NCBI GenBank assembly: GCA_031261485.1
Contig: JAISJO010000106.1
Span: 1 to 37,944 of the forward strand
Length of the DNA: 37,944 nucleotides
Direction of reading: 5' to 3'
Source: Propionibacteriaceae bacterium
GTDB taxonomy: Bacteria > Actinomycetota > Actinomycetes > Propionibacteriales > Propionibacteriaceae
A program made the position numbers and the translations under genes. The notes under the pieces were generated by a model. It was not told the origin of the DNA and made no database searches. It worked only from the letters and a program-made list of their open reading frames with translations. Shown piece after piece: positions 1 through 34,456 of this stretch (position 1 is its first letter; the number at the start of each line of letters is the position of its first letter).

Positions 1-205
1 TGGGTCACAGCCCTCACAGGCTGGACAGGCTTCTCATCAAGTCACCATCGTGGACCGGGTCGGCGTCGGCTCTGACCCTGGCGGGCAAATCTTGTTCAAG
101 ACACTTCCACGAAGGCCAGTCTCAATCCGAGTCACACCAAGGCAAGAGGACCAACACCAACCCTGCCAGCCAGCCACGGGCCAGCCAACCCAATACTTAC
201 AGTCT

Positions 206-338
206 CAATCGCCTCGGACACGAAGCGAGCTTCGAGTCTCTCGGCTCAATCGCTTGTGCTCAGGCTGACGCCTGCAACAAGCTTCAATCGCCTCGGACAC
301 GAAGCGAGCTTCGAGTCTCTCGGCTCAATCGCTTGTGC
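206..338 (-). repeat. Two tandem units of a two-hairpin repeat, 3' of kdgK
   Basis: Two 54-bp units (206-259 and 285-338) are nearly identical and repeat with a 79-bp period. Read on the minus strand, the strand of kdgK, each starts GCGATTGAGCCGAGAG, has the hairpin core CGAAG-CTCG-CTTCG, and ends in GGCGATTG. The linker between them holds a second hairpin (261-265 with 270-274, CAGGC/GCCTG). A second pair with the same period and layout lies at 33901-34053 after bioM. Both pairs are in sense orientation relative to the gene they follow. No protein is predicted. The family looks like a REP-like extragenic element. Confidence 0.85.
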
Positions 339-379
339 GACTTTGCGCAGAATGACAAGGCACGTTGGTTAGGGACCTC

Positions 380-1477
380 CTAGCGCACGACGCGAGCGGA
401 CCCGCCCCCAGCTAACTTCCGTACCTCGTTGGCCGTTGCCATGGATGTGTCACCGGGAGTGGTCATGGCCAGTGCTCCATGTGCGGCGCCCAGATTGACG
501 GCGACATCCAAGGACTCCCCGGACAGCAAACCGTACACGAGACCAGACGCGAAAGAGTCTCCGCCGCCCACACGGTCGAAGACCTCCAAACCGTCGCGCT
601 GGACAGCCTGGACGAGTCCCGTCTCCCGACTCCAAGCGATGGCTCCCCAATCGTTGATGGTGGCTGAGCGGACCCCCCGCAGTGTTGTGGCGATGACGGC
701 AAAGTTGGGGTACGCGGCGCTGACCTGGTCGATCATGGCTGAGAAGGCGTCCACAGGCAGGCTCGTCAAGGACTCGTCGGTGCCCTCCACCTCGAAGCCC
801 AGCGCGGCTGTGAAGTCTTCTTCGTTGCCGATCATGACGTCGACGGACTTCGCCAATGCTTTGTTGACTTCCCGTGCTTTGGCTTGGCCGCCGATGGACT
901 TCCACAGACTGGGACGGTAATTGAGGTCGTACGACACGACTGTGCCGTGGCGATGGGCGGCCTCGACCGCTTCGAGAGCCACCTCGGGAGTTGTCTCAGA
1001 CAGGGCGGCGAAGATGCCTCCCGTGTGGAACCACCGTGCTCCGCGCCGACCGAAGACTTCTGACAAGTCGATGTCGCCGGGCTTCAATTGGGACGTGGCT
1101 GTGTTCCCCCTGTCCGATACCCCCACAGCACCACGGACGCCGAATCCGCGCTCTGTGAAGTTGAGCCCGTTGCGCACTGTGCGCCCGACACCATCGGAGG
1201 CCACCCAGCGCACGTACGAGGTGTCCACGCCGCCAGCCAACATGAAGTCCTCGACCAGATGCCCCACCTCGTCATCCACCAAGGCGGTCACAGCGCCCAC
1301 CCGCAGGCCGAAGACCTTGCGCAACCCTCGAATGACGTTGTACTCTCCGCCACCCTCCCAGGCGTCGAATCGGCGGGCCGTGCGTATCCGCGTGGGGCCG
1401 GGATCGAGACGCAGCATGACCTCTCCCAAGGACACGGCGTCATAGGCGCATTCAGCGGCGGGGCGAAGGGTGAGCAT
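380..1477 (-). CDS. kdgK: PfkB-family sugar kinase, probable 2-keto-3-deoxygluconate kinase
   Basis: This 365-residue protein is a ribokinase/PfkB-type carbohydrate kinase. It has the N-terminal substrate region with GGGEYN and the C-terminal PfkB signature FDRVGGGDSF, in which Asp307 is the expected catalytic base. KDG kinase phosphorylates 2-keto-3-deoxygluconate to KDPG. The assignment over other PfkB sugars rests on the next gene upstream being a KDPG aldolase. The chosen ATG is preceded by AAGGAGG seven bases upstream; an in-frame extension of 19 codons has no such site. The 173-bp gap to eda contains an inverted repeat, GTCTGAG/CTCAGAC, near 1517-1547. The pair is probably co-transcribed but not tightly coupled. 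Confidence 0.8.
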   Translation of the reverse strand: MLTLRPAAECAYDAVSLGEVMLRLDPGPTRIRTARRFDAWEGGGEYNVIRGLRKVFGLRVGAVTALVDDEVGHLVEDFMLAGGVDTSYVRWVASDGVGRTVRNGLNFTERGFGVRGAVGVSDRGNTATSQLKPGDIDLSEVFGRRGARWFHTGGIFAALSETTPEVALEAVEAAHRHGTVVSYDLNYRPSLWKSIGGQAKAREVNKALAKSVDVMIGNEEDFTAALGFEVEGTDESLTSLPVDAFSAMIDQVSAAYPNFAVIATTLRGVRSATINDWGAIAWSRETGLVQAVQRDGLEVFDRVGGGDSFASGLVYGLLSGESLDVAVNLGAAHGALAMTTPGDTSMATANEVRKLAGGGSARVVR

Positions 1478-1650
1478 GGAACCTCCTTGTTGTGCGAGTC
1501 TTGGGTCCATCCCGACGGGTCTGAGGTGGCGCACCAGATGGTCTCAGACTATGACATGCCCTGGGGTGGGGGCATCTATTCGCCCGGTGTTGTCACCGAA
1601 GAGGCAAGTCCGCGCAAGACATCAGCCTCAGATGAGGATAGTCAGCGGGC

Positions 1651-16979: not shown

Positions 16980-18014
16980 TCAGAGGACGCGCACCGCGTA
17001 CGTCAAGGGCATCCCGTTCCACAGTGCGGATTGGACGATTCCTTGACTGGGGTTCCATGCACCGATCTTCTGGCCGCCGCCGATGTACATCTCCACATGA
17101 GAGATGGGCGAGTACACGAAGATGAGGTCGCCTGGCTGAAGTTCTGAGAGCGACACTGGTCTGCCAGCAGACACCTGGGCCCCCGCTACGCGAGGAATAT
17201 GGATGCCGATGGAGGCATAGGCGGCCTGGGTCAATCCAGAGCAATCATAGGCATTGGGGCCTGTGCCGCCGTACACGTAGGGGTAGCCGACGCGGGCTTT
17301 GACGTACGCGACGACTTGCGCGGCCAAGGAGCCATTGGGTGGCGCGACCGACGCACCACCGGAGGATCCACCCGCGTTAGGGGGCGCTTGAGGATGCGCA
17401 GTCGCTTGTGCCGCAGCGGCAGCAGCTCGGGCTCGAGCCAGTGCGGCCTGCTGTTCAGCGGTAAGTCGGGCGACAAGATCCTCGGCTTCTTTGACCTTGG
17501 CCTCCGCTTGCGCCTTGGCGGATTCCATCTCCGCTTCCTTGGCCGTCATCGCTTCCACGCTCGCCTGAGCAGACTTCTCCAAGTCGGCCAACTCAGACTG
17601 GCGAAGCTGGAAATCCTGGATGATGGCTGCGGTCGTATCCCCGACCCGCTGGGATGTCTGAATCTGGACAAGGGCTTCATCAGCGGATGCCGAGCCGAAT
17701 AGCGCGGCGGCTGAAGATGCTCCCCGGTCCTGATACTGCTGAAGAATGACCACGACCAACTGAGATCTTGCCTGTTCAACTGCAATCTCTTGAGTGGCGA
17801 TATCTTCCTGGATGCGAGTGAGCTTGTCCTTCTCGGCGTCCAACTCGACTTGGGCCTCGACGTAGGCCTCAGCGGCCTCGGAGGACTCCTGTTCCAGAGT
17901 GTCGAGTTGGGCCTGGGCTTCGCTCAGGGGGTCTGCCGCCGCGGGCACTGTCCCCAGCCATGCCATTGAGACAATCAGGAGCGGTGCTAGTAGGGCTTTC
18001 GCCACGCGATGCAT
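16980..18014 (-). CDS. Secreted NlpC/P60 peptidoglycan hydrolase with coiled-coil
   Basis: This 344-residue protein has a signal peptide (about 1-27, ending VPAAADP) and a long Ala/Glu-rich coiled coil (about 30-200). A short Pro/Gly linker leads to a C-terminal NlpC/P60 domain with the catalytic Cys258 in DCSGLT and His306 in SHVEMYIG. Such enzymes cut the stem peptide of peptidoglycan during growth or division, as in RipA-type proteins, where the coiled coil regulates or recruits the catalytic part. The start is the ATG nine bases after GGAAAGG; an ATG six codons earlier overlaps that site. The neighbouring CHAP protein has a very similar coiled coil, so the pair arose by duplication with exchange of the catalytic domain. 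Confidence 0.92.
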   Translation of the reverse strand: MHRVAKALLAPLLIVSMAWLGTVPAAADPLSEAQAQLDTLEQESSEAAEAYVEAQVELDAEKDKLTRIQEDIATQEIAVEQARSQLVVVILQQYQDRGASSAAALFGSASADEALVQIQTSQRVGDTTAAIIQDFQLRQSELADLEKSAQASVEAMTAKEAEMESAKAQAEAKVKEAEDLVARLTAEQQAALARARAAAAAAQATAHPQAPPNAGGSSGGASVAPPNGSLAAQVVAYVKARVGYPYVYGGTGPNAYDCSGLTQAAYASIGIHIPRVAGAQVSAGRPVSLSELQPGDLIFVYSPISHVEMYIGGGQKIGAWNPSQGIVQSALWNGMPLTYAVRVL

Positions 18015-18044
18015 CAGAAAGAACCTTTCCATGTTTCTGAGGAA

Positions 18045-18073
18045 ATCCTAAGGGAAACTCAGGAATAAGTCTA
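18045..18073 (-). promoter_or_regulatory. Promoter of the NlpC/P60 gene, twin of the CHAP promoter
   Basis: On the minus strand, TAGACT (18068-18073), 17 bp, then TAGGAT (18045-18050) gives a promoter-like pair. An inverted repeat CTGAG-N16-CTCAG (18037-18062) spans the -10 box. The same boxes, spacing and inverted repeat occur before the CHAP gene. Confidence 0.55.
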
Positions 18074-18190: not shown

Positions 18191-19171
18191 TCAGTGGATG
18201 TAGTTGAATGCCCCAGGATTAGTGATGGTGCGATACCCGATGACATTCCAGCCAGCGGGCCCATTCATCTCCGAGATAGTGATGGTTCCATTGCCGTTGA
18301 CAGCCTCAACGATGGCAACGTGTCCAAGCCCGCCGCCATTCTGGATGATGGCACCGACTGCGGGCGTGTGGTCCACAAGGTATCCCTCTTGAGTCGCCGC
18401 CCATGCCCACGACACAGCGTTGCCCCACATCGTGCCGACAGGAAGGCCTAGTTGGACGCGGCGATTGAAGGCATACCATGTGCAGTAGCCGTAGGTGTAG
18501 CGGTTGGAACTGGCTGTGGGAACGGACGGGCTAGCCCCAGCCGGACGAGAACCGGCAGCATCTGCAGCGGCGGCCGCAGCAGTACGGGCATGGGCAAGAG
18601 CGGCCTGCTGTGCTGCGGTGAGGCTCGCGACCAAGGTCTTGGCTTGCTCAACCTTCTTGTCGAGTTCGGCTTTGGCTGTTGACATCTCTGCCTTCTTGGC
18701 AGCCATGGCGTCCACCGTGTCCTGTTCGGACTTCTGCAAGTCGGCAAGCTGCCCCTGTTCCAGTTGATAGTTCTGGATGATGGCGGCTGTCGTGTCCTGG
18801 ACCATCTGGTAGGTCACAATTTGGCTGAGCATCTCAGACGAGCCAGAGCCAAGAATAGCCGCTGTGGATGAGGCACCGCGGTCCTGATATTGCTGGAGAA
18901 CGACGATGGACAACTGGGACCGTGAAACTTCAAGAGCTTCTTTCTTCGCCTTGATGTCTGCCTGAATGGAATCGAGTTTTGCCTGCTCAGCAGTCAGTTC
19001 GAGTTCTGCAGCAGCATATTCGTCAGCGGCTTTGCCAGCGGCCTGCTCTAGTGTGGCTAGTTCCGCCTGGGCATCAGCCAAGACATCTGCCGACGCTGTC
19101 ATAGTGCCTAAGAAGACAGTCCCAACCACGATCACCAATGAAAGGAACCCCATACCTGCGCGACGAATCAC
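18191..19171 (-). CDS. Secreted CHAP-domain peptidoglycan hydrolase with coiled-coil
   Basis: This 326-residue protein has a signal peptide (about 1-28, ending TASAD) and a coiled coil (about 30-190) closely similar to that of the NlpC/P60 neighbour. For example, [13 protein letters not shown] is shared almost exactly. A C-terminal CHAP domain follows, with Cys230 in YGYCTWYA, His284 in GLGHVAIVE and Glu301 in SEMN as the expected catalytic residues. CHAP enzymes act as amidases or endopeptidases on peptidoglycan. GTG at 19171 is chosen because GGGAAAGG is six bases upstream; a GTG two codons earlier touches that site. The twin promoter suggests co-regulation with its paralog. Confidence 0.9.
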
Positions 19172-19198
19172 GACCACCCTTTCCCTAAGTCTGAGAAG

Positions 19199-19227
19199 AT
19201 TCTAAACGAAACTCAGGATTCAGTCTA
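19199..19227 (-). promoter_or_regulatory. Promoter of the CHAP gene, twin of the NlpC/P60 promoter
   Basis: On the minus strand, TAGACT (19222-19227), 17 bp, then TAGAAT (19199-19204). CTGAG-N16-CTCAG (19191-19216) surrounds the -10 box exactly as before the NlpC/P60 gene, and TCCTGAGTTTC is shared by both spacers. Confidence 0.6.
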
Positions 19228-28766: not shown

Positions 28767-29747
28767 CTATGGCCGCTGAAAGAGACAGAAAGCCTCGCGG
28801 TTGCCCCGTTCGCCCGGCAGCGCTGAATCTCCCTGCCAGGCCAAGGGCCAACCAAGGTCAGCGGCGGCCTCTACGACTGCGGCGATTCCGCGAGCCCGAG
28901 TGGCGTCGTCACGGACAACCCCATGTGAGTCGAGTGCACTGCGGCCCACTTCAAATTGGGGTTTGACAAGGAAGAACGCACTGCCGTGCTGCGCCAAGAC
29001 AGAGAACAGCGGGGCGAGCAAGAGCGTGAGGGAGATGAACGACACATCAGCCACCACCAAATCGACCGGAACCCCCTCCACATCAGCGAGACTCAGGTCG
29101 CGCAGGTTCAGGCCCTCACGCACCACCACTCTGGGGTCCTGCCGCACAACGGGCGCGAGTTGGCCGTGCCCTACATCCAGCGCGTACACCTTGGCCGCGC
29201 CACGGGCGAGGAGAACCTGGGTGAAACCGCCTGTGGACGCGCCCGCATCAAGGACACCCGCCCCTTCGATCACCAGTGGCGACAGCGTCTGTTGTTTCGT
29301 TGCTGAACGGTGTTCAACAACCTGGGGACTGGCTTCAGAAGAGGAGTCAGTCTCAACGCGGCGGTGAGCCTGAGCGAAGGAGGACGAAGAGGAGGAGGAA
29401 GCCTGAGAGGAGCCCGCGTGAGAAGAAGGAACCTGAAAGGAGGGAACCTGAGACCACGGAACCTGAGAGGGGCAAACCGGAGAGGGAGGAACCGGAGAAG
29501 AGGGGTCTTGAACGCAGCGGCGGGTTTGCACGGAGTTCAGTTCGTCCAGCGCATGAATCAACTTGTGGGCGGCTCGTGACACGTACGGATCGAGCACCAC
29601 ATCAAGGAGCGTCGAATCATCGACCGGCATGGATGGTTTGGCTTCACCCGCCCCAAGAACACTGACCTGACCAGCATCAATGAGTTGTCGAGCGTGAGAA
29701 CGTGAGCGCGCCAATCCGCGTTCCACAAGCGCCAAGTCGAGACGCAT
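28767..29747 (-). CDS. tlyA: TlyA rRNA 2'-O-methyltransferase with a large linker insertion
   Basis: This 326-residue protein has an N-terminal S4 RNA-binding domain (1-60) and a C-terminal FtsJ-like methyltransferase with the SAM motif LDAGASTGGFTQVLL (166-180). The later VVADVSFIS and LVKPQFEVG carry expected catalytic residues. TlyA methylates 16S C1409 and 23S C1920 in mycobacteria and sets capreomycin sensitivity. The domains are normally joined by about 25-30 residues. Here residues about 71-160 form a low-complexity Ser/Pro/Val insertion, partly coded by five tandem 15-bp repeats. The insertion also holds a copy of the BioQ-type palindrome. Both domains look intact. Confidence 0.92.
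   Translation of the reverse strand: MRLDLALVERGLARSRSHARQLIDAGQVSVLGAGEAKPSMPVDDSTLLDVVLDPYVSRAAHKLIHALDELNSVQTRRCVQDPSSPVPPSPVCPSQVPWSQVPSFQVPSSHAGSSQASSSSSSSFAQAHRRVETDSSSEASPQVVEHRSATKQQTLSPLVIEGAGVLDAGASTGGFTQVLLARGAAKVYALDVGHGQLAPVVRQDPRVVVREGLNLRDLSLADVEGVPVDLVVADVSFISLTLLLAPLFSVLAQHGSAFFLVKPQFEVGRSALDSHGVVRDDATRARGIAAVVEAAADLGWPLAWQGDSALPGERGNREAFCLFQRP
29304..29316. promoter_or_regulatory. BioQ-type palindrome inside tlyA
   Basis: TGAACGGTGTTCA matches TGAAC-N3-GTTCA. Its reverse complement has the same core, TGAACACCGTTCA, as the site before bioQ. It lies within the tlyA linker insertion, about 1.9 kb from bioQ. Whether it is functional is unknown. Confidence 0.45.
29428..29502 (-). 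repeat. Five tandem 15-bp repeats inside tlyA
   Basis: The plus-strand units are GGAACCTGAAAGGAG, GGAACCTGAGACCAC, GGAACCTGAGAGGGG, CAAACCGGAGAGGGA and GGAACCGGAGAAGAG. They keep the tlyA frame and code for a five-residue P-x-S-x-V unit on the minus strand. Slippage at such repeats can change linker length without frameshift. Confidence 0.85.
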
Positions 29748-33241: not shown

Positions 33242-33949
33242 ATGATTCACTTCGATTCGGTCACCTTCTCCTATGGCGAGCGGCGTGTCCTCACGGACAT
33301 CACCCTCGACCTGAATGAGCACCGTATCGGCGTCGTGGGTGGCAACGGTTCGGGCAAGTCCACCTTCGCCCGCCTCATCAACGGTCTGCTCGCCCCCATT
33401 TCCGGCGCAGTCATTGTCGATGGTTTGAACACTGTTCACGATCTCAAGAAGGTGCGGACAAAGGTGGGTTTCGTCTTTCAGGACCCCGACCTTCAAATCG
33501 TCATGCCCACAGTGGCAGAAGACCTGGCCTTCTCTCTGCGCCCCCTGCGCCTGCCCAAATCAGAAGTCGAATCACAGGTCAGCACCTGGTTGGACGCTTA
33601 CGGACTAGCCGACCACCGCGACCATCCTGCCCATCTGCTCTCAGGCGGGCAGAAACAGTTGCTCGCCATCGCAGCCATCCTCATCATGAAGCCTCAAATC
33701 GTGGTTTTCGACGAACCAACGACTCTGCTCGACCTGAGAAACAAGCGTCGCATCATGAACGTCGTGGACAGCCTCGAACAGCAGGCCATCGTCGTGACCC
33801 ACGACCTGGAGTTTCTCAATGGATTCGACCGAGTGCTCGTTCTCGACCAAGGCAGGGTGGTCGCTGACGACTCCCCCGCCCCGGCCCTTGACGCATACAA
33901 GCGATTGAGCCGAGAGGAACGAAGCTCGCTTCGTGACCGAGGCGATTGA
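33242..33949 (+). CDS. bioM: Biotin ECF transporter ATPase
   Basis: This 235-residue ABC ATPase has Walker A GGNGSGKST (33-41), a Q-loop at FQDPDLQ, signature LSGGQKQ (133-139), Walker B IVVFDEPT (153-160) and the switch histidine in VTHD. It powers BioY-BioN. Two oddities are visible. A BioQ-type palindrome lies in its coding sequence at 33426-33438 (GLNTVHD). The last 15 codons and the stop are supplied by the dispersed repeat at 33901-33950, so the C-terminus RLSREERSSLRDRGD is repeat-encoded and probably not conserved. The catalytic core ends well before this. Confidence 0.92.
   Translation: MIHFDSVTFSYGERRVLTDITLDLNEHRIGVVGGNGSGKSTFARLINGLLAPISGAVIVDGLNTVHDLKKVRTKVGFVFQDPDLQIVMPTVAEDLAFSLRPLRLPKSEVESQVSTWLDAYGLADHRDHPAHLLSGGQKQLLAIAAILIMKPQIVVFDEPTTLLDLRNKRRIMNVVDSLEQQAIVVTHDLEFLNGFDRVLVLDQGRVVADDSPAPALDAYKRLSREERSSLRDRGD
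33426..33438. promoter_or_regulatory. BioQ-type palindrome inside bioM
   Basis: TGAACACTGTTCA, identical to the core of the bioY operator, lies about 185 bp inside bioM. It could be a roadblock or auxiliary site for looping with the bioY operator 879 bp away, or could be fortuitous. Confidence 0.5.
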
Positions 33950-34053
33950 GACTTGTTGCGGGCGTTAGCCCAAGTACGAGCGATTGAGCCGAGAGGAACG
34001 AAGCTCGCTTCGTGACCAAGGCGATTGAGACTTGTTGCGGGCGCGAAAGCGCC
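33901..34053 (+). repeat. Two tandem units of the two-hairpin repeat, 3' of bioM
   Basis: Units at 33901-33950 and 33980-34029 share the 79-bp period and layout of the pair at 206-338. The 9-mer GCGATTGAG flanks each hairpin core (33901, 33942, 33980, 34021). Secondary hairpins follow each unit: GGGC-GTTA-GCCC (33960-33971) and GGCGC-GAAA-GCGCC (34040-34053). The first unit overlaps the bioM 3' end. The pair lies in the convergent gap with rbpA. Confidence 0.85.
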
Positions 34054-34099
34054 GAACATCGAAGACTCTGTGAAAACTAGTCGGCCTGCCGCCTAGGGC

Positions 34100-34456
34100 T
34101 CAGTAGATGGCTTCGCCGTGCGCCCTGCGCGTGCGCAAATCGTCCACCGCTTCGGCCAGAATCTCCTTGGCCTCAGCCTCCGTACGACGTTCCTTCACAT
34201 AGGCCAGATGGGTCTTGTAGGGAAGGATGTGCGGCGGCGGCGGCGGGTTTTCCTGGTCAGTGTTCGCCGGCAAACCGCAGCGAGGGCAATCCCACTCAGG
34301 GGGGTACACCGCGTCCACGGCGAACGCCTGGCGGGTCTCGTGCCCATTCGAGCACCAATACGACACGTACACCCTGGGCGCAGAATCCCCGCGCTCCGCT
34401 TCACCCATTGGTCCCGCACCCACGCGCGACCCACGGATAGCACTACCCACAGCCAT
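34100..34456 (-). CDS. rbpA: RNA polymerase-binding protein RbpA
   Basis: This 118-residue protein is the actinobacterial RNA polymerase activator. It has RVYVSYWCSNGHE and WDCPRCGLPA giving the zinc-binding-type core, the basic N-terminal segment AIRGSRVGAG, and the C-terminal sigma-interacting helix RRTEAEAKEILAEAVDDLRTRR. RbpA stabilises the open complex with the principal sigma factor. It lies 47 bp after secG on the same strand and ends the glycolytic cluster. Its 3' side faces the bioM repeat pair. Confidence 0.95.
   Translation of the reverse strand: MAVGSAIRGSRVGAGPMGEAERGDSAPRVYVSYWCSNGHETRQAFAVDAVYPPEWDCPRCGLPANTDQENPPPPPHILPYKTHLAYVKERRTEAEAKEILAEAVDDLRTRRAHGEAIY

Follow-up and report, generated by a model that had tools for sequence, protein, structure and literature searches.

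A compact two-hairpin repeat of Actinomycetota with a conserved fold, clean insertions and the probable character of a non-autonomous mobile element

The DNA analysed here (the window) is a 37,944-nt stretch from a Propionibacteriaceae bacterium. It carries a gene for a BioM-like, ECF-type ABC ATPase (33242..33949, plus strand), which BioY adjoins, and a gene for a PfkB-family sugar kinase (380..1534, minus strand). The name kdgK, assigned to the latter in a first-pass annotation of this DNA, corresponds to models that score below their equivalog cut-offs, and only membership of the PfkB family is supported. Comparison of direct and inverted repeats bears out the tandem arrangement that the same annotation had described: four copies of a repeat of about 79 bases form two tandem pairs, one at 33897-34058 on the plus strand and the other at 199-336 on the minus strand, each with 79-bp spacing (direct repeats D3 and D6), lying 33.6 kb apart and joined by an inverted repeat (I1, 88% over 136 nt). 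Each pair had been said to follow a gene, and this holds for the kinase gene, which lies 43 nt upstream of the first minus-strand copy. The bioM-like gene is not merely followed: its 3′ end is overlapped by the first plus-strand copy, with the last 17 or so codons and the stop codon TGA (33947-33949) inside the repeat. The minus-strand pair is itself inserted in a MITE-like palindrome, one arm of which, GTCATTCTGCGC(G)AAGTCGCA, occupies 336..356 on the minus strand. Elsewhere in the window lie an array of 15-bp tandem repeats resembling AACCTGAGAGGAGGG (29387-29511) and a 69-bp direct repeat whose two copies (18005-18073 and 19159-19227) are 74% identical and 1154 bp apart.

Alignment of copies from the host genome and its genus defines a unit of approximately 79-84 bp. 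Read 5′ to 3′, its first part comprises ACAnnC (P1), GATTGA, GSS (P2), GA, and a hairpin (P3) with a G(CUYG)C-type loop; after P3 follow GA, SSC, GATTGA, GnnTGT (P1′), (T)GA, a second hairpin (P4), GA, and finally (A/G)CA or TA. The two near-invariant GATTGA boxes oppose one another in a symmetric internal loop between P1 and P2, and a GA/GA mismatch pair stands at the foot of both P3 and P4. The first-pass annotation had identified the hairpins correctly and drawn the unit too short, as the outer stem begins at A33897, where ACAAG(C)/CTTGT encloses both GATTGA boxes of the first copy. This copy, unit A (33897..33976, plus strand), has P1 strands at 33897-33902 and 33952-33956, GATTGA boxes at 33903-33908 and 33944-33949 with the P2/P3 hairpin between them, and P4 at 33960-33971; it terminates in AAGTA at position 33976, which is also the first base of unit B (33976..34058, plus strand). 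In the latter, P1 lies at 33976-33981 and 34031-34035, the boxes at 33982-33987 and 34023-34028, the P4 hairpin GGCGC-GAAA-GCGCC at 34040-34053, and the terminal GAACA at 34054-34058. On the minus strand, unit C (257..336), the best covariance-model match of the genome at 91.4 bits, has P1 strands at 336-331 and 282-277, boxes at 330-325 and 289-284, P4 at 274-261, and a terminal GCA at 257. Unit D (199..257, minus strand) retains the 5′ strand of P1 (257-252) and both boxes (251-246 and 210-205), and is a truncated copy lacking P4. A second hairpin had been ascribed to every copy; the three named versions, CAGGC/GCCTG, GGGC/GCCC and GGCGC-GAAA-GCGCC, all exist, and both hairpins are present in units A, B and C, leaving the shortened unit D as the exception.

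In RNA folding, units A and C take the structure described above at minimum energy, while a different fold is marginally favoured in unit B. Two alternative folds are possible, as the TGT of P1′ has an ACA partner both at the left end and after P4. A type II variant, in which P2 is reduced to 2 bp (GATTGAG-N-GAG ... CGA-N-CGATTGA), co-occurs with the type I form just described and is represented at L050:1420-1486, L104, L114, L100 and L101:400-461.

That the repeat is under selection for structure, as had been proposed from compensatory changes, is strongly confirmed by covariation in two sets of sequences. In a plain sequence alignment of 19 sequences, independent of any model, both partners vary in 12 of 19 pairs; among 112 distinct copies from Actinomycetota, whose alignment was fitted to the model and so favours the structure, they do so in all 19 tested pairs. 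Within the larger set, 93.3% of cells are paired, compared with 65.4% after shuffling and at most 49% in slid controls, the cell counts being inflated by the relatedness of the copies; covariation is 0.673 as against 0.181 for shuffled alignments, and none of 500 shuffles reaches the real value. The 5′ and 3′ strands of P1 occur as 59 distinct sequences resembling ACAnnC/GnnTGT. Non-Watson-Crick cells in the helices comprise 155 G-T and 53 A-C, and P1 alone, counted without the model alignment, yields 68 and 26, respectively. This excess of G-T over A-C indicates that the fold forms on the given strand, either as RNA or as single-stranded DNA. The GATTGA boxes, as nearly invariant direct repeats, could also be read as a site bound by a protein on duplex DNA, with the palindromy secondary; given covariation across every tested stem pair and the G-T bias, both of which point to a folded single strand, a duplex site seems scarcely credible.

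The host genome (G000; 2.8 Mb in 112 contigs, 98% complete) contains 30 or more copies. A whole-genome search gave 29 BLAST matches, most with E below 1e-5, and the covariance model gave 33, which together establish the multi-copy nature anticipated for the repeat and show that it is not a chance similarity. Within the genus, 17 of 19 genomes carry the repeat at E≤1, the number of matches ranging from 0 to 52 with its maximum in genome G017. Larger draws, in which few candidates were scored per genome and the counts are accordingly lower bounds, revealed it in at least 46 of 197 genomes of the family (E≤0.001), at least 6 of 396 sampled evenly from the phylum, and at least 3 of 120 sampled evenly around a Microbacterium. 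Copy number ranges from 0 to 84 per genome, with a patchy occurrence across Propionibacteriaceae, Micrococcales, Actinomyces, Nocardioides and a few others. Among the matches listed in a pattern scan of named genomes were Propionibacteriaceae MAGs, Humibacter, Microbacterium, Nesterenkonia, Leucobacter, Agrococcus, Frigoribacterium, Actinomyces, Demequina, Nocardioides and a Mycobacterium. Over whole genomes the count was, for example, 84 for Nesterenkonia ebinurensis, 25 for Humibacter sp. RRB41 and 18 for H. albus, and Leucobacter weissii and Frigoribacterium JB110 had 10 apiece. Tandem pairs with a period of 77-84 bp recur in Humibacter, Actinomyces and Leucobacter. Many of these loci were found with a pattern or model derived from the repeat itself, which biases the collection toward canonical copies.

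DNA-pattern matches in other phyla score below 28 bits with the model and were judged to be chance, and those on viral contigs score below 18 bits, and no phage match to the unit was found; the one plasmid match is an incomplete copy carried by a Streptomyces megaplasmid. Carriage by viruses or plasmids was accordingly rejected. In Rfam 15, no entry matched so as to cover a unit at E≤1 for 12 loci or at E≤0.5 in a scan of seven loci, and none matched the window at its gathering score. A limited literature search, outside of which most subscription papers fall, returned work on REPs or on unrelated subjects and no description of the repeat, and an earlier description is therefore possible. The family is found in several orders of Actinomycetota and has no Rfam entry or description in the literature searched.

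The placement of the units is highly specific at one class of gene. Of 222 distinct units, 49 begin exactly where a tRNA or tmRNA gene ends, every one of them in the sense orientation (three called from T-arm sequence only), and in nearly all of these the discriminator A73 is also the outermost base of P1; A73 of tRNA and tmRNA is strongly over-represented as a junction. A further 17 sense units lie 57-114 nt behind a tRNA, about one unit length, which is the position expected behind a first unit. The commonest neighbour is tRNA-Leu (17), followed by tRNA-Val, in raw counts not scaled to tRNA gene content. Only a minority of tRNA genes carry a unit, and different tRNAs do so in different species. 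Two degenerate copies abut a convergent tRNA (L062 in genome G018 and L112 in genome G001).

Some single units also lie across the stop codon of a protein gene: in addition to the bioM-like gene in the window, this is seen at arginine deiminase in Actinomyces and at rpoC in several Microbacterium species and Frigoribacterium (L133, L137, L148, L149, L171, L193, L195, L218 and L314). At rpoC the stems are altered and still paired through compensatory changes, and retention of this position across Microbacteriaceae points to some local benefit, or to long vertical descent, more than to free movement. Together with the fact that the sense strand is the folding strand, these placements would suit a cis-acting element of RNA 3′ ends that has spread because it is useful; its hairpins, once transcribed behind a tRNA, tmRNA or mRNA, would mark or shield the RNA end or offer a binding site to a processing protein. 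Several observations run counter to such a role. Relative to the upstream protein gene, 35 units are sense and 25 antisense (p=0.25, with crude gene calls), which is not significant and does not sustain the orientation bias originally suspected; the tRNA association is confined to a species-variable minority; a copy within uvrA, described below, is in frame and antisense; and the occurrence of the repeat is patchy, with most related species lacking it. Nor is there a U tract: TTTT within 10 nt after P4 occurs in none of 159 units, and a scan of 33600-34300 found no intrinsic terminator, on which grounds we reject the identity of the repeat as a Rho-independent terminator. The role at RNA 3′ ends put forward in the first-pass annotation thus has a counterpart at tRNA and tmRNA genes and is only partly supported as a general function, and we consider a 3′-end element unlikely, though a serious possibility, as the explanation of the family. 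A mobile element and a cis-acting 3′-end element may both be true, at different loci.

Insertion behaviour, a reading absent from the first-pass annotation, emerges from comparison of filled and empty sites. The palindrome that holds units C and D belongs to a MITE-like family, MITE1 (GTCATTCTGCGCGAAGTCGCAGAATCC...GATTCTGCGACTTCGCGCAGAATGAC), with some 40 or more copies in the host genome (window 336-356; L245-L274), approximately 30 empty and about a dozen filled with a unit; the insertion point, GTCGCA|GAATCC, is seen in both arms of the palindrome. A second dispersed repeat of about 120 bp, MITE2 (CCGGTGTCGGGGGACCCCCAAACACCGG...GGATTTTGGGGGTGACACCGAGGCAGG; L405-L424), is unrelated to MITE1 and exists in the same genome as four empty and about eight filled copies, with the insertion point CACCGGA|CG[GA]CGCCCC. 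Roughly 20 of the 30 or so host-genome units lie in these two families, with common flanks, and many host copies may have been spread by MITEs rather than by their own movement. Taken further, the unit would be passive cargo, an internal segment of palindromic transposable repeats that moves only with them. However, both families have empty forms and are unrelated to each other, and copies at tRNA genes, in G017 and in other genera have no MITE flanks, which contradicts this proposal and renders it highly unlikely.

The G017 copies, 52 matches that are mostly similar to one another, have unrelated flanks and usually follow TA. A further case is provided by the UvrA gene of an 11.5-Mb actinobacterial genome (L216:2304-5621), in which an 84-bp unit is inserted in frame and antisense between KGGVY and VYILDEPT (L216:5295-5378), adding 28 residues before VYILDEPT. 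At the corresponding position, the Streptomyces megaplasmid carries a cut-down remnant that keeps the frame. A shorter insert directly before VYILDEPT, likewise encoded by the antisense strand of the repeat, is found at L433:2505-2556. The nearest solved UvrA (7sh1) has no insert.

Insertions are clean and mostly lie immediately after a YA dinucleotide. YA also closes the unit, which leaves room for another behind it, in keeping with the arrays of approximately 79-bp period. Terminal inverted repeats, scored as at least 6 of 8 matching terminal bases, are present in none of 159 units. The YA on the left correlates with that on the right (Fisher p=3e-4, calculated without the G017 family and on copies that are not independent), and from this correlation a target duplication of 2 bp appears possible; the empty and filled MITE1 pair permits duplication of CA at most. 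A longer duplication, to which rpoC, UvrA and MITE2 point, has no counterpart in MITE1 or the recent G017 family, and was rejected. Also rejected was a hairpin immediately upstream as the general target, which holds for tRNA and MITE2, whereas the remaining insertion points show no more structure than controls shifted along the sequence.

Among the known families nearest to the repeat are the REP and REPIN sequences associated with RAYT (Y1) transposases, which comprise GTAG- and CGTC-tagged families (PMC3733652; REPINs, PMC3116915). Like these, the unit measures tens of base pairs, forms hairpins, is multi-copy, mostly intergenic and without terminal inverted repeats, and is thought to be a non-autonomous mobile sequence; its oriented, clean insertion after a short motif would likewise suit mobilisation by a Y1 (RAYT/IS200-IS605) transposase. 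The tags, however, are missing, GTAG and CGTC occurring near the left foot in only 4 and 3 of 159 units, and the unit differs from REPs in its two dissimilar head-to-tail hairpins, its GATTGA internal-loop boxes and its flush junctions with tRNA and tmRNA ends. The Y1 transposase domain (PF01797) is present in only G012 and G014 among the 19 genus genomes and absent from G000 and G017 (98-99% complete), hosts with tens of copies, and we rejected it as the mover on this basis; a REP-type repeat moved by Y1 is weakened to the point of being quite improbable.

A chromosomal reverse transcriptase was rejected similarly, RVT_1 being absent from G017. The host genome has two reverse transcriptase genes, one (L432:1026-2255) with a strong match to the defence-type UG26 family (506 bits) and another (L431:392-1438) with a weaker, general match. 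One of these lies about 1.3 kb from a unit, which is probably a coincidence, as no other reverse transcriptase in the genus is so placed. The absence of Y1 from G000 and G017 and of RVT_1 from G017 indicates that the mover is not such an enzyme encoded there; that these searches yielded no candidate mobilising gene counts against the mobile-element reading.

Other short or tRNA-associated elements resemble the repeat in part. MITEs are likewise short, dispersed and non-autonomous, and some units are nested in two MITE families, but the unit lacks terminal inverted repeats and shows no clear target duplication longer than about 2 bp. Integron attC sites are imperfect hairpins in which a symmetric unpaired spacer divides the outer stem from the inner one, and they are active as a folded single strand. 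The unit shares the outer and inner stems, the symmetric internal loop and the single-strand fold, whereas it lacks the core boxes GTTRRRY/RYYYAAC, having ACAnnC/GnnTGT-like P1 strands instead, and is itself the dispersed entity, with no gene cassettes or cassette-like spacing seen. The repeat resembles REPs, MITEs and attC sites in part and fails a tested defining feature of each. Some integrative elements use tRNA 3′ ends as attB, and tRNA and tmRNA genes are similarly insertion sites for the unit, which differs in being only 79-84 bp, with no integrase, no restored tRNA segment and a junction exactly at A73. An archaeal stem motif, CGTTA-N9-TAACG, also stands behind many tRNA genes, but is confined to a single species and is not dispersed elsewhere.

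We favour, as the probable explanation, a new family of very small non-autonomous mobile elements acted on in trans in a folded, single-stranded form. The unit, which encodes no protein, would be recognised in its given orientation as RNA or single-stranded DNA, with the fold serving as the substrate of an outside mobilising enzyme and the tRNA 3′ end as a preferred target; some host-genome copies would now also travel inside the two MITE families. The reading of mobility draws, besides the comparison of filled with empty sites, on the range of 0 to 52 copies within one genus, the high counts in Nesterenkonia ebinurensis and a Humibacter, the patchy occurrence in the phylum and the in-frame UvrA insert not found in the solved protein. 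As a test system, the repeat bears on how the smallest mobile elements move without a gene of their own and on what recognises tRNA 3′ ends, and isolates of Nesterenkonia, Humibacter and Leucobacter make it testable. UvrA gains a peptide from it, and tRNA trailers and stop codons may be altered, with consequences for annotation and for studies of RNA processing.

A more specific and distinctly doubtful route would proceed through folded, processed RNA ends, the element being joined behind the cut site at A73 with P1′ acting as a short guide matching the target. Were this route correct, the repeat would stand for a novel class of bacterial mobile nucleic acid of minimal size. The idea of a P1′ guide derives from the host right flanks, which resemble the 5′ strand of the unit above chance, with 2.13 matches of 5 compared with 1.60 expected, rpoC and UvrA providing examples.
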